Assembly: GCA_035946615.1 (NCBI GenBank)
Contig: DASYZB010000140.1
Span: 1 to 35,000, forward strand
DNA length: 35,000 bases
Direction: 5' to 3'
Origin: Verrucomicrobiia bacterium
GTDB lineage: Bacteria; Verrucomicrobiota; Verrucomicrobiia; Limisphaerales; UBA8199
Below, one piece after another: positions 6,492 to 18,311 of this stretch; the stretch's first letter is position 1, and each line of letters starts with the position of its first letter. Both the position numbers and the translations under genes were made by a program. The notes under the pieces are model-generated. The model saw only the letters and a list, made by a program, of their open reading frames with translations, was not told the origin of the DNA and ran no database searches.

Positions 6492-8864
6492 ATGATGAAT
6501 TGCCGTCGCGTTTCGTTGGGGTCTGCTTCCTTCCTTTGCTGCCTCTGGCTCGCGTTCAATTTCGGTTTGCTCTCAGTGCTGGCTGGCGAGGCGGGTTTTC
6601 GCCCGGAAAAGCTTGCCAAGATGGACGCAGCCATCGAGCAGGCCATAGCCGAGCACCGATGTCCCGGTGGCGTGTTGTGGGTTGAACACCAAGGGCTCAG
6701 CTATCATAAGGCCTACGGCCATCGCGCCCTGGTCCCGGATGTGGAGCCGATGACCGAAGACACGATTTTTGATGCCGCTTCGCTAACCAAAGTGGTTGCT
6801 TGCACCCCAGCGGTAATGCTCCTGGTCGAGCGCGGCTTAATCGGTCTGGATGAGCGCGCGCAAACCTATATCCCGGAGTTCAAGGGCGGGGGCAAGGAAG
6901 CCATTACCGTCCGGCAACTCATGTTGCACCTCTCGGGTTTGCCCGGCGATATCGAGACCCGCACCGACTGGCATGGGTCCGAAACGGCCATTCAAAAGGC
7001 CTGCGCGGCGCAGCTCGTAAGTCCGCCCGGCACAGTCTTCCGCTATAGCGACATCAACTTCTTTCTCCTGGGCGAAATCGTCCAGCGCGTGAGCAAAATC
7101 CCGCTCAATGAATTTGTTGCCCGCGAGATTTACCAACCGCTCAAGATGGTGGATACGGGTTATCTGCCGCCGGAATCGAAGCTGGGGCGCATCGCGCCGA
7201 CGGAGATGGTGGATGGCAAACCCTGGCGCGGAGTGGTGCATGACCCCACGGCGCGCAAGATGGGCGGGGTCGCGGGCCATGCCGGGCTGTTCTTTACAGC
7301 CGCAGACCTGGCGCGGTATGCCCGCATGCTCCTCAATTTGGGTGAGTTGGAGGGCGCGCGCGTGTTGAAACCCGAAACGGTCCGTTTGATGACCAGCGTT
7401 CAAAGCCCTCCTTACATTTCAGACCGTCGTGGGCTGGGATGGGATATCGACTCGGGCTACAGCGGGGCGCGCGGGAAGATTTTCCCACTGGGTTCCTACG
7501 GCCATACCGGCTGGACCGGCACTTCCATCTGGATTGATCCTTTTTCCCAAAGCTTCGTGATTTTCCTGTCGAACCGCAATCATCCGACAGAGGAAGGCAA
7601 TGTCGGGGCACTTCGGGCCCAGCTTGCCACTTTGGCGGCCCAAGCCATCGCGGATTACAATTTTACCTACGTGCCCGGCGCGCTTCCGCCATGGACTAAC
7701 GCAGAGCCCCGCTTGGTGCGGGAAAAACCCGTGGCTCAGTTCAAAACCCTCAATGGGATTGACGTTCTGGTGAAAGAACATTTCGCGCCGCTCAAGGGCC
7801 TGCGGGTTGGCCTGATTACCAACGATACGGGCCATGACCGCCAGCGCAATCCGACCATTGATCTGCTCCTGCACGCTCCGGAGGTTCAACTTAAGGCACT
7901 CTTCAGTCCCGAACACGGCATCCGTGGCCTGAAAGATGAGCCGGTCTCCGATGAGGTGGACGAGCAAAGCGGGTTGCCTGTCTATAGCCTCTACGGCGAG
8001 CATCTCAAACCCAAACCCGAGCAACTTCAGCACCTCGATGCGTTGGTCTTCGATATCCAGGATATTGGCTGCAGGTTTTACACTTACACCGCCACAATGG
8101 CCTTGGCCATGGAAGCCGCCGCCGAGAATGGCAAGAAATACTTTGTCCTGGACAGGGTCAATCCGCTCAATGGCGTGACCATTGATGGGCCGGTCTTAAT
8201 CGGCGAACCTAGTTTCGTTGGATTTCACCGGGTCCCGCTTCGCTATGGGATGACCATCGGCGAGTTGGCGCGGATGTTCAAAGCCGAGCGCAACTGCGCG
8301 GCGGATTTAACTGTCATCCCGCTGGAGAACTGGCGCCGGGATTTGTGGTTCGACCAAACCGGGCTGCCGTGGACGGACCCTTCACCCAATATCCGCAATC
8401 TGACCGAGGCGATTCTATATCCCGGGCTGGGTCTTCTGGAGCGCGCCGTTTCGGTGGGACGCGGCACCGATACCCCTTTCGAGATAGTGGGCGCCCCGTA
8501 CGTCGATGATGTGCGGCTGGCCGATGAATTGAACCATGCCCGCTTACCTGACGTCCGATTCGTGCCCATCCGCTTTACGCCCACCTACAGCACATACCAA
8601 AATCAATTCTGCCGGGGCGTTTACATCCTCCTGACCGACCGCCAAGCCTGCAACGTGGTCGATGTCGGCCTGCAGATTGCCAAAACCTTGTACCGTCTTT
8701 ATCCGCACGACTTCGACCCGGACAAGGTGAGCCACCTGCTGTTGCACCCGCCAACTCTGGAAGCGATTAAGGCCGACAAACCGCTCAGCGAGATTCACCT
8801 GAGCTGGCAAAAGGACCTGGACGAGTTCCAAAAGATACGCGCGAAATATTTGATCTACAGATGA
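6492..8864 (+). CDS. fusion of AmiE/beta-lactamase-fold serine hydrolase with NamZ-type (DUF1343) exo-muramidase
   Basis: 790-residue exported protein with two enzyme domains. A signal peptide (about 1-32) precedes a class C beta-lactamase-fold hydrolase: nucleophile motif SLTK (Ser97, Lys100), YSDIN (Tyr185) and HTG (338-340, in place of KTG). From about residue 415 the rest is DUF1343, the fold of NamZ exo-beta-N-acetylmuramidase, with the conserved SPEHG (Glu474, the expected catalytic acid), VYSLYGEH and VFDIQDIGCRFYTYTATM. In Bacillus subtilis the corresponding proteins AmiE (YbbE) and NamZ (YbbC) are separate and act in turnover of peptidoglycan MurNAc fragments. I infer one periplasmic enzyme that trims peptide and MurNAc from wall fragments; esterase or other hydrolase activity of the first domain is possible. 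A TGA-TAG-like gap of only 8 bases separates it from the convergent gene. Confidence 0.9.
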   Translation: MMNCRRVSLGSASFLCCLWLAFNFGLLSVLAGEAGFRPEKLAKMDAAIEQAIAEHRCPGGVLWVEHQGLSYHKAYGHRALVPDVEPMTEDTIFDAASLTKVVACTPAVMLLVERGLIGLDERAQTYIPEFKGGGKEAITVRQLMLHLSGLPGDIETRTDWHGSETAIQKACAAQLVSPPGTVFRYSDINFFLLGEIVQRVSKIPLNEFVAREIYQPLKMVDTGYLPPESKLGRIAPTEMVDGKPWRGVVHDPTARKMGGVAGHAGLFFTAADLARYARMLLNLGELEGARVLKPETVRLMTSVQSPPYISDRRGLGWDIDSGYSGARGKIFPLGSYGHTGWTGTSIWIDPFSQSFVIFLSNRNHPTEEGNVGALRAQLATLAAQAIADYNFTYVPGALPPWTNAEPRLVREKPVAQFKTLNGIDVLVKEHFAPLKGLRVGLITNDTGHDRQRNPTIDLLLHAPEVQLKALFSPEHGIRGLKDEPVSDEVDEQSGLPVYSLYGEHLKPKPEQLQHLDALVFDIQDIGCRFYTYTATMALAMEAAAENGKKYFVLDRVNPLNGVTIDGPVLIGEPSFVGFHRVPLRYGMTIGELARMFKAERNCAADLTVIPLENWRRDLWFDQTGLPWTDPSPNIRNLTEAILYPGLGLLERAVSVGRGTDTPFEIVGAPYVDDVRLADELNHARLPDVRFVPIRFTPTYSTYQNQFCRGVYILLTDRQACNVVDVGLQIAKTLYRLYPHDFDPDKVSHLLLHPPTLEAIKADKPLSEIHLSWQKDLDEFQKIRAKYLIYR

Positions 8865-8872
8865 GGTTTTGA

Positions 8873-9343
8873 TCAATGTGATTGAGGGACCACCGGTGCG
8901 TGGGCCGCATGCAGGGTAATGGTGCTGTCGGAAAGCCAGGGATGCTCCTGCCGATCGATAATCAGCACGCGAGGCAGCAACTCGATCTCATGATTGAAGA
9001 GCTGGAAAGTGACTGTACCCGGCAGGAATGTCGTGTCCATAAAGATACAGGAGCCGAACGGGACGGGATACGGGACGGGCTGCGGCTGTGCGAAAATGAG
9101 AGAGCCCAAGGCATTGGTTGCCGGAAGCATCTGGTCGGGAAACTCGATTTGGACATTGGTGATGGCGAGCTTGTGCTGGTTGATGACAAGGGCGGGCGCG
9201 CCTGCGGGTGAATTTGTAAAGGTGACGTGCCAAGGCCCTTTGCGTGTCCGCCGATGCTCGATGGCGTGGTAGAACAGGGCGTAACAGCCCAAGGCCAGCA
9301 CAAAGGCGAGGATGAAATGCTTCATCGGATTGTCCGAACTCAT
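8873..9343 (-). CDS. membrane-anchored protein of unknown function
   Basis: About 156 residues from the first ATG at 9343 (the ATG at 9325 is also possible). The N-terminus MKHFILAFVLALGCYALFYH is a signal anchor followed by the basic HRRTRKGPW; the remainder is beta-rich and should face the periplasm (WHVTFTNSPAGAPALVINQ, ITNVQIEFPDQMLP). No cysteine pair or known catalytic motif is seen and I do not recognise the family. It lies about 70 bases downstream of the protease gene on the same strand, so co-transcription is likely; a chaperone or partner of the protease is only a guess. Convergent with the muramidase fusion gene. Confidence 0.65.
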   Translation of the reverse strand: MSSDNPMKHFILAFVLALGCYALFYHAIEHRRTRKGPWHVTFTNSPAGAPALVINQHKLAITNVQIEFPDQMLPATNALGSLIFAQPQPVPYPVPFGSCIFMDTTFLPGTVTFQLFNHEIELLPRVLIIDRQEHPWLSDSTITLHAAHAPVVPQSH

Positions 9344-9415
9344 GTGGGTTCGAGAGTCTGGCAACTCGACCAGTGATGTCAAGCCAGCGAAACACACACT
9401 CGGAAGGCCACCGAG

Positions 9416-10852
9416 TCACTGGCCCGAGGCAGATTTTAGGGCGAAATTGCTTTGGACGAAGGATTGCGCCTGAGCGGTAGTACTGTGATTGACATCCATA
9501 TAGCCAGCGGCCAGACCGCTCGTGAAGGCCGCTGCGGGGGACGTGCCGACCACGTACCATGGTTGGTTTCCGTAAACGATGATACTCGTTCCCGGGGCGC
9601 CGAGTGAGACCCAACTGCCACGATCAGCGTAGGAAGCAATCTGGCCATTGGGGTCCAGGGCGGTCACCGGATTCACCCCGGCGTAAGCGGCCGGATACAT
9701 CGGGAGCGTACCGCCCTGATTTCCCGCCGAAGCAAAAAAGAGGATATTTTGGTCAAGCGCTTGCTGGATTATGTTGTGCAAAAAGGGACTATCCTCTGGA
9801 CTCCCCAAGCTCAAGTTAATAACCCTCGCGCCCGAGTTAATCGCCTGCACAATCCCATTCGCAACGTCAAATGTGCTGGTGCTCTCATTGGGGCCATAGA
9901 CATCGACGGGCAGAATCTGGACCGAAGTCGAGCCTTGGGTGACCGCCTGGATGCTGCGCAGGATGGTTTCGGCCATCGACGTGCCATGTGATGGCGTTTT
10001 GGGATCGAGTTGAGCGTCGCCGGCCACGGAGATTTGTTTCAGCATGAACTGGTCGAGGTTATTTCCTAGAGGCTGCACGGCGGTATCAATCAAGCCCACC
10101 ACCACTTTTCCATTGTCGGGCGGCGGCTTGAGTTGCAGTTGCGGCGCAGCCAGGGTGCTCGCCGCTAACGGGCCGGGCGTCGGGGGAGCATCGACCGAAT
10201 AGTTGCTATCCACGGCGGCGACCTGCGGATTGTCGGCCAATTGCTGCCGTGCCGCATCGGCGGCAGCCGCATCCTCGAACTCCAGCCGATATGCGTTCAT
10301 GCTGTCGATATGGCCAATGACCTTCGCGCCAAGTTGGCGGGCCAAATCCTCGATGTTTGCCCCCGGCTTCAGTCGCACAATCAGTTCATTCGGGATGAGC
10401 TTGCCGTTTGGCGGCGTCGAGGGACGGACCAATTGTGTCGCGTTTTCTCGCCCGGTGCGGAAGACGAACAGGCGCTGGCCCGAGTTGGTGCCGGGCACCA
10501 GCGCGTAATTGAGTTCACCCAACAGCAGGTGGAGGGCCTCACCGGGAGGGACATCGTTAAACTTCGCCGAAACATTATGACTGGCAGAGGGTTCGAGAAA
10601 TACCTGCCAACCGGTGGCTGCGGCAATCTTGGCGAGAAGCTGCTTGAGGTTCCCATTGTCAATGTTGGCCCTGACTCGATTCCGGTTCGTATTCCATTGG
10701 AGTGAGCTGACCAGTAAAGAGTTGCCCGGAAGCACGGCGGAAAATGCCGGCAAAATTCCCAAGCAGGACGCGACGAGACCCACAAACAGCCAGCGTGGCA
10801 GCAACTGGCGCGGGCGCGACAACATCGAGAGCGAAACAACAAAGTCAACCAT
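9416..10852 (-). CDS. secreted subtilisin-like (S8) serine protease with STN-like N-terminal domain
   Basis: 478-residue exported protease. After a signal peptide (about 18-39), residues 55-132 look like an STN (secretin/TonB short N-terminal) domain: NLKQLLAKIAAATGWQVFLE and FNDVPPGEALHLLLGELNYA. Residues 150-222 resemble the fervidolysin-type prodomain (NELIVRLKPGANIEDLARQL ... NPQVAAVDSNY). The peptidase follows with Asp256 (GLIDTAV), His289 (SHGTSMA), Asn378 (ASAGNQGG) as oxyanion residue and Ser438 (VGTSPAAAF, normally GTSMAAP). All catalytic residues are present. The fold is shorter than average but complete. It probably leads a two-gene unit with the membrane-anchored protein downstream. 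Confidence 0.85.
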   Translation of the reverse strand: MVDFVVSLSMLSRPRQLLPRWLFVGLVASCLGILPAFSAVLPGNSLLVSSLQWNTNRNRVRANIDNGNLKQLLAKIAAATGWQVFLEPSASHNVSAKFNDVPPGEALHLLLGELNYALVPGTNSGQRLFVFRTGRENATQLVRPSTPPNGKLIPNELIVRLKPGANIEDLARQLGAKVIGHIDSMNAYRLEFEDAAAADAARQQLADNPQVAAVDSNYSVDAPPTPGPLAASTLAAPQLQLKPPPDNGKVVVGLIDTAVQPLGNNLDQFMLKQISVAGDAQLDPKTPSHGTSMAETILRSIQAVTQGSTSVQILPVDVYGPNESTSTFDVANGIVQAINSGARVINLSLGSPEDSPFLHNIIQQALDQNILFFASAGNQGGTLPMYPAAYAGVNPVTALDPNGQIASYADRGSWVSLGAPGTSIIVYGNQPWYVVGTSPAAAFTSGLAAGYMDVNHSTTAQAQSFVQSNFALKSASGQ

Positions 10853-17324: not shown

Positions 17325-18311
17325 CTACCTTGACAAACAACGCTGCGCAATGCGGCGCGTTAGCCCGCCCAAACGCGCTCGGCTACGGTTGGCTAACAGG
17401 ATCAAAGTCAGCCGTTCTTGAGGAAATCGTGTGATCCGGCTTGTAAACCCCACGCTGTTGCCGCTGTGCCAAATTTGCACGGTATCCTTGAAAGGAGTGA
17501 TGTACCAACCCATTCCGTAGGCGGTATTGGGCAAGGGAGTGGCTATGGAAGGCGCGAAGGCCATGCCAAGCCACTTCCCCCTCATCAGACCCTCCCTCTC
17601 GAGAGCCTGGTCCCACTTAAACAAATCCGCCACCGACGAATAAATCCCTCCGTCCCCTAAGACCGAACTGGTCAGGCTCTGATCAGTCTGCTCATAGCCT
17701 CGTTGCGTTTTCGTATAACCATATGCGCGATTAGCTATTTGCGCCAAGCCCTCCTGATAAGCCACAGTTTGCCTCATCCCCAACGGTTCGAAGATATTCC
17801 TGCGAAGAAAGGCAGAAAACGTCTGATCCGAACGCGCCTCAACGGCCAGGGCCAGCAACGCATAACCCGAATTGCTGTAGCGAAACCGGGCGCCCGGCGG
17901 GAAGTAAGTCCGCCTCTGGCGCAGGAGCAGCCGCAGCACGTCCAGGTCGTTTAGAGCCAGCTTAAGGTTCTTGGGCATAATCCTCTCATAATCGATCAGG
18001 CCGGAGGTGTGCGTCAGGAGATGTCGAATCGTAACGGCCCGGCCATACGCAGGGAATCCGGGAAAAAGATCGGCCAGGCATTCATCGAGCGAGAGCCGGC
18101 CCCTGTCCGCCAGTATCAGGATAGCCATGGCTGTGAATTGCTTCGTGACGGAAGCGAGGCGGAAATTGGTTCGATTGGTGCAGGGGCTTTGGTGGTCGAG
18201 GTCTGCCAGGCCATAGCTTCGGGCAAAGACCGGTTTGCCGGCGCGGATGACCATGGCGCTGATTCCGGGGGCATTGGGCCTGTCAAATTCCCGTAATAGG
18301 TCTGAAAACAT
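17325..18311 (-). CDS. beta-lactamase-fold serine hydrolase (class C-like)
   Basis: 328-residue hydrolase of the class C beta-lactamase / penicillin-binding family. Motifs are in the right order: SVTK (Ser54, Lys57), YSN (145-147) and HSG (282-284). The segment HLLTHTSGL (about 97-105) is also typical. Substrates of such proteins vary (esters, D-amino-acid peptides, lactams), and resistance should not be assumed. No signal peptide is seen after the ATG at 18311, and the frame upstream runs into a stop without another start. It is therefore cytoplasmic or exported by an unseen route. Same strand as, and upstream of, the membrane protein gene; the gap is about 80 bases. Confidence 0.85.
   Translation of the reverse strand: MFSDLLREFDRPNAPGISAMVIRAGKPVFARSYGLADLDHQSPCTNRTNFRLASVTKQFTAMAILILADRGRLSLDECLADLFPGFPAYGRAVTIRHLLTHTSGLIDYERIMPKNLKLALNDLDVLRLLLRQRRTYFPPGARFRYSNSGYALLALAVEARSDQTFSAFLRRNIFEPLGMRQTVAYQEGLAQIANRAYGYTKTQRGYEQTDQSLTSSVLGDGGIYSSVADLFKWDQALEREGLMRGKWLGMAFAPSIATPLPNTAYGMGWYITPFKDTVQIWHSGNSVGFTSRITRFPQERLTLILLANRSRARLGGLTRRIAQRCLSR

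Follow-up and report, generated by a model that had tools for sequence, protein, structure and literature searches.

In the window (the whole stretch of DNA that was analysed, 35,000 nucleotides in length), a single open reading frame at 6492–8864 (+), with an ATG start, encodes a 790-residue protein where a hydrolase of the S12 beta-lactamase fold is fused to a NamZ domain. On balance, and with slightly more confidence than doubt, we take as its best account that of an exported enzyme in which an S12 amidase would be followed by a NamZ exo-muramidase, feeding MurNAc salvage. The fusion would thus be an exported bifunctional enzyme. Its serine hydrolase would strip the stem peptide off the MurNAc that forms the non-reducing end of a wall fragment, i.e. 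it would act as a MurNAc-L-Ala amidase (the AmiE reaction). The NamZ domain would next cut the bared MurNAc off exolytically, and free MurNAc would enter the cell, for the kinase and MurQ steps encoded in the genome. A flexible linker would join the two domains, and no channel would be required. The enzymology of NamZ, including a need for peptide-free MurNAc, is reportedly the subject of a paper published in 2021. That this need holds here, together with the substrate of the S12 half, the bond that it cuts and the order of the steps, is what we infer: because the context is one of salvage, and because NamZ would need bared MurNAc, the S12 half is read as the step that bares it.

The two halves are readily delineated. 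After an N-terminal segment discussed below, the S12 domain spans residues 45–379 (6624–7628, +), as defined by PF00144 and by fold matches. It carries the nucleophile and lysine of the family in S97-L-T-K100 (6780–6791, +), the tyrosine motif in Y185-S-D187 (7044–7052, +; a YSDIN stretch begins at 185) and the third motif in H338-T-G340 (7503–7511, +). A linker of about residues 390–414 (7659–7733, +) leads to NamZ_N (PF07075; residues 439–637, 7806–8402, +) and then to NamZ_C (PF20732; residues 641–789, 8412–8858, +). Glu474, which we take to be the catalytic acid of NamZ, is encoded at 7911–7913 (+), in the SPEHG motif that begins at residue 472. The Pfam scores are 231.3 bits for the beta-lactamase family PF00144 (cut-off 27), 267.5 bits for NamZ_N (cut-off 26.9) and 145.8 bits for NamZ_C (cut-off 25), all at least five times the curated cut-off. 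A PF00144 domain with SxxK, YxN/YxD and K/HxG motifs is what defines a member of peptidase family S12; likewise, both NamZ domains above cut-off, the glutamate of EHG and the fold of the solved members are the marks of the NamZ/DUF1343 family. The NamZ half can be placed with high confidence. A preliminary description of this DNA had proposed that two intact domains, an S12 hydrolase and NamZ, share one frame, that Glu474 lies in SPEHG and that residues 415–790 belong to DUF1343/NamZ. These proposals hold: the catalytic-type residues are present, the position of the glutamate agrees, and it is in that family that Pfam placed these residues.

An AlphaFold2 model (45 aligned fusions) has a mean pLDDT of 91.3 and consists of two well-folded domains. 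Low confidence is limited to residues 1–8 and to residues 403–413 of the linker, where pLDDT falls below 50. Its pTM is 0.54, so that the relative placing of the two domains is not fixed by the model. As modelled, well-defined domains without a fixed mutual placing would fit two tethered enzymes. Matches of the NamZ half in the PDB include two DUF1343 proteins from Bacteroides fragilis, found both at the level of sequence (4k05, E 3.8e-81; 4jja, E 2.5e-47) and of structure. It aligns over its length to both (Foldseek TMt 0.90 and 0.85, respectively), with Z 49.2 over 371 aligned residues and an rmsd of 2.1 for 4k05, and Z 39.3, 335 residues and 1.8 for 4jja. The S12 half meets esterases and beta-lactamase-fold proteins among PDB sequences (EstG at 30% identity, E 5.8e-28), while its fold is matched by the macrolactin acyltransferase 6kjh (Z 41.8), by EstG (Z about 40) and by the family VIII esterase 4ivi (Z 40.0). 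These top matches lie within about two Z units of one another, and the fold alone therefore does not pick the reaction.

Conservation of the motifs was followed in 48 aligned fusions, 38–74% identical to the window protein. In all 48, S97, K100, Y185, S186, D187, H338 and G340 are invariant in the S12 half, and so are P473, E474, H475, G476, D521, Q523, D524 and R555 in the NamZ half. The third S12 motif reads HTG in 46 fusions and HLG in the other two. It also reads HTG in 10 of the 15 non-fused S12 rows of the alignment: E. coli YfeW/PBP4B, the PBP4B of Priestia, proteins from three haloarchaea, Thermomicrobium, Deinococcus, Streptomyces clavuligerus and Gemmatirosa, and a Phocaeicola protein. 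The other five rows are distant and poorly aligned, and in the outgroups of the S12 tree (AmpC, AmpH and the remaining S12 proteins of the genome) the motif columns align poorly too; the residue comparison leaves all of these out. Five further stand-alone S12 proteins are HTG proteins as well. Judging from these alignments, HTG belongs to a wider set of S12 proteins and is not a change that occurred in the fusion. The preliminary description had seen in an 'HTG change' and in the order of the domains the marks of a distinct subfamily, and neither of these marks survives the comparison. In B. subtilis, NamZ is presumably the product of ybbC. The order of the domains is that of the genes, amiE...ybbC, in the B. 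subtilis cluster as given in an excerpt of PMC5061867, and also in two haloarchaeal clusters that we describe below.

How widespread is this architecture? NamZ_N was found in 43 of 58 genomes of the order, the source genome included. The NamZ_N frames were extracted, then searched with the two domains of the window protein: 36 of the 43 genomes (hence 36 of the 58) have S12 and NamZ in the same order and in one open frame. This count includes one genome, G001, where the fusion is cut by a contig edge. The NamZ_N genomes without a counted fusion are G016, G022, G043, G047, G051, G053 and G055. A NamZ frame of 806 residues in G051 was set aside, its N-terminal part having no Pfam family match, and long frames of G322 and G075 were likewise rejected as they have no S12 domain. 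Many genomes of the order also hold a stand-alone NamZ of about 400–520 residues, in a separate clade. There is no such second NamZ in the source genome, where the fusion is the single PF07075 match. In a sample of the phylum, NamZ_N is present in 170 of 288 genomes, and the fusion, among the matches listed, in at least 10 genomes besides the source genome; it was sought there in listed frames of at least about 690 residues with S12-sized room, which gave 12 places including the window. The three named relatives at 73–75% identity are metagenome-assembled genomes of Verrucomicrobia subdivision 3/Limisphaerales, which suggests that the source genome belongs to Limisphaerales as well. A search of plasmids matched 935 records, with 80% or more of the query covered in 12, and three of the plasmids examined, from Burkholderia savannae and two Cupriavidus (L065, L066, L069), carry one-frame fusions. 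The preliminary description had staked its fusion on homologues free of any stop or frameshift between the halves, and the one open frame of the 36 genomes bears it out. As the source genome is a draft in 161 contigs, one could suspect an artefact of assembly or of frame. The same order and frame in these 36 genomes, in the 10 or more others of the phylum sample and in three complete plasmids of another phylum already refute it, and we give this suspicion practically no credence.

The fused S12 domains (n = 48) form one clade, with support 97/99, found in 96% of bootstrap trees. A branch with support 99/99 sets the HTG group apart from AmpC, AmpH and the remaining S12 proteins of the genome, in a tree where very long outgroup branches leave the details unsure. 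In a NamZ tree built by a quick method, with SH-aLRT support only, four label changes are needed: the S12-less proteins of G022, G043, G047 and G055 nest inside the fusion clade. We considered that G043, G022 and G055 might hold frameshifted fusions and rejected the idea, there being no S12 within 6.3, 4.3 and 2.3 kb upstream, respectively. G047 leaves no more than 75 bases of contig ahead of its S12-less NamZ. The simplest reading of the trees is that there was probably one fusion event, with S12 later lost in some lineages. Burkholderiales fusions group with those of the Verrucomicrobiota in both the S12 and the NamZ trees, a pattern which suggests transfer between phyla.

Export had been anticipated in the preliminary description, and the N-terminus of the protein fits it. 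Residues 1–31 (6492–6584, +) are basic at the start and run on into a long hydrophobic segment, according to a crude hydropathy measure, with a modelled helix at 10–29. Of 53 rows, made up of 48 proteins and five duplicates, 52 show by the same crude test a hydrophobic stretch of 13 residues ahead of the S12 domain, and the window protein is among them. A lipobox pattern was matched in 11 of these 53 rows; a pattern search of the N-terminus of the window fusion found none.

At the level of genomes, the fusion goes together with AnmK, which is encoded in 18 of 36 fusion genomes versus none of the 22 without fusion (p 2.3e-5). The figures are 13 of 26 versus 0 of 20 with one genome per family (p 1.4e-4), and 9 of 22 versus 0 of 15 among genomes with a completeness of 90% or more (p 0.005). 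In G031, an AnmK match that is both weak and partial (25 bits) was not counted; including it would bring the first figure to 19 of 36. For MurQ, the difference over all 58 genomes is not significant (28 of 36 with fusion versus 14 of 22 without, p 0.36), and a weak link appears in genomes at least 90% complete (20 of 22 versus 8 of 15, p 0.017). All these statistics, for AnmK as for MurQ, ignore shared descent. The source genome encodes AnmK. It also encodes a protein of 630 residues with a BadF/BadG kinase domain then MurQ (L141:3600-5489, contig C10), the MurQ part of which scores 343.7 bits with PRK05441 (cut-off 168) and 294.5 bits, below the cut-off of 302, with TIGR00274. It has two GH3 proteins as well, both with GH3_C, so that neither is clearly NagZ. 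As a side observation, the kinase–MurQ pair lies in one frame in the three genomes tested (L116, L117 and the source genome), and strong MurQ matches occur in frames of at least 600 residues in 36 of 42 genomes of the order, the kinase having been checked in three genomes.

In the window itself, scans of 10 proteins with Pfam and of 10 with NCBIfam brought up no MurNAc-salvage gene. Convergent with the fusion, a frame at 8873–9397 (−) encodes a small protein with no Pfam match, kept beside the fusion in three of eight distinct family genomes (46–51% identity); this is the only conserved neighbour seen. Two genes away from the fusion lies a subtilase (S8) with a fervidolysin-type prodomain (9416–10852, −). 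Further on, at 17325–18311 (−), is a second, distant S12 protein, close to the L002 S12 of the same genome, which the tree does not put in the HTG group.

Stand-alone relatives of the two halves were examined at their own loci. A murQ, anmK, nagZ or DUF1343 gene lies within 4–6 kb of the gene for a stand-alone HTG-type S12 protein in nine of 13 annotated loci, which are top matches plus the known E. coli yfeW locus, hence not a random draw; two further S12 loci, in unannotated records, lie outside the 13. The nine are from E. coli, Halorussus, Haladaptatus, Thermomicrobium, Deinococcus KNUC1210, Halomontanus, Mariluticola, Deinococcus aetherius and Sphingobium. No such neighbour was found in the 4–6 kb flanks of the loci of Priestia, Streptomyces, Limosilactobacillus and Natrialba, the last of which has genes for wall-peptide breakdown. 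As for DUF1343 loci, genes for MurQ, AnmK and a BadF-type kinase, but none for S12, accompany that of Paenibacillus; that of Deinococcus ficus has a BadF-type kinase; that of Spirosoma has no recognisable salvage gene; and two more are in unannotated records. In two haloarchaeal clusters, S12, DUF1343 and nagZ are individual genes lined up in a series, and anmK lies close by. These peptidoglycan-catabolic clusters are borne by plasmids (L064:2630-11195 and L067:527-8196), and that of Halorussus additionally encodes a hypothetical protein with no Pfam match and a peptidoglycan-recognition protein. The organisms that carry them are not known to make murein themselves.

The S12 fold includes amidases, DD-peptidases and esterases, which counts against any certain reading of the S12 half as an amidase. 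This half may be an amidase (AmiE-like), a DD-peptidase or an esterase, and it is the context that favours a MurNAc-salvage enzyme. The salvage reading draws support from motifs that are both intact and invariant, from the nine of 13 S12 loci next to salvage genes, and from the distribution of AnmK. Counting against it are the missing significant link with MurQ, the absence of a salvage neighbour among the window proteins scanned, GH3_C on both GH3 proteins and the four S12-less homologues, which either lost S12 or never had it. It might be, instead, that the S12 half is a PBP4B-like DD-carboxypeptidase or endopeptidase that trims stem peptides, NamZ freeing MurNAc independently. The best NCBIfam model for this half is indeed PBP4B (NF002968), and E. 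coli YfeW/PBP4B sits in the same wider HTG clade (99/99); however, the score is 142.8 bits, far under the cut-off of 385, so that no named equivalog fits. The excerpt of PMC4916385 places PBP4B among the DD-carboxypeptidases, yet it gives PBP4b a smaller or null contribution among them at acidic pH. Moreover, an enzyme that trims D-Ala would leave an exo-muramidase without bared MurNAc, and the place of yfeW in the murQ operon suits a salvage role at least equally. All in all, we consider a DD-peptidase rather unlikely.

An esterase acting ahead of NamZ, for instance to clear wall sugars of ester groups, would agree with the esterase type of the nearest solved S12 structures (EstG and the family VIII carboxylesterase 4ivi). 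This is to be set against the fact that a fold and 20–34% identity do not fix chemistry, and that the salvage neighbours of the stand-alone S12 genes fit peptide removal more directly, which makes esterase activity improbable. As some relatives lack S12, one may even imagine that this half is a non-catalytic module which binds the wall on behalf of NamZ; with S97, K100, Y185, D187 and H338 kept in every one of the 48 fusions, at identities down to 38%, this idea has very little to recommend it. Returning to the amidase acting before NamZ, a bolder version may be entertained, tentatively and with more doubt than trust. The fusion might be a self-gating exo-enzyme, where removal of the peptide from the terminal MurNAc by S12 licenses the tethered NamZ to take that sugar off. 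It would have been invented once, would have become the standard form of NamZ in the order, would have passed a single time between Verrucomicrobiota and Burkholderiales, and would feed a pathway with a fused kinase–MurQ.

Similar systems have been recorded before. The protein YP_439122.1 presumably belongs to Burkholderia thailandensis. It stands as a one-member entry, DDPept-DUF1343, in the table of a survey of serine proteases published in 2008, with the same two domains as the window fusion, in the same order as named there; as far as the excerpt of this survey goes, the entry is a single protein of untested function, at a time when DUF1343 had no other name (PMC2605481). The S12–NamZ architecture is therefore in print since 2008, and the fusion is conserved in its group. 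The plasmid fusions of Burkholderia savannae and Cupriavidus have the same order of domains in one frame, at 38–41% identity to the window protein; two of them read HLG where the window protein reads HTG. RefSeq names one of them 'exo-beta-N-acetylmuramidase NamZ domain-containing protein' and another 'serine hydrolase'. Unlike the window gene, they adjoin genes for a polysaccharide deacetylase and a putative glycoside hydrolase. On these plasmids (L065:3844-8217, L066:3803-8241 and L069:1678-6358), the fusion comes after these two genes (the hydrolase is DUF4015 in L066), and the set of three may be a mobile wall-glycan cassette.

Among unfused proteins, B. subtilis NamZ (YbbC), 4k05 and 4jja share NamZ_N, NamZ_C and the glutamate of EHG with the window protein, but they stand alone, whereas the window NamZ belongs to a clade of fused ones. 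E. coli YfeW/PBP4B shares SxxK, YSD and GHTGxTG with the window S12 half, and is a separate protein encoded in the murQ operon. The AmiE of B. subtilis (YbbE) is also a separate protein. In the excerpt of PMC5061867, it is a MurNAc-L-Ala amidase, encoded in a cluster of murQ, murR, murP, amiE, nagZ and ybbC, and PBP4B is called a DD-carboxypeptidase in a title cited there.

As the architecture was already catalogued, the gain lies in function and distribution. What the analysis adds is that the fusion is the main form of NamZ in one order, with an apparent single origin and an association with AnmK. The link between S12 hydrolases and exo-muramidases is made explicit, and a role is suggested for those S12 proteins, commonly annotated as serine hydrolase or PBP4B, in which YSD and GHTGxTG occur. 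Should the halves work one after the other, the fusion would offer a compact means of stripping peptidoglycan, starting at the non-reducing end.
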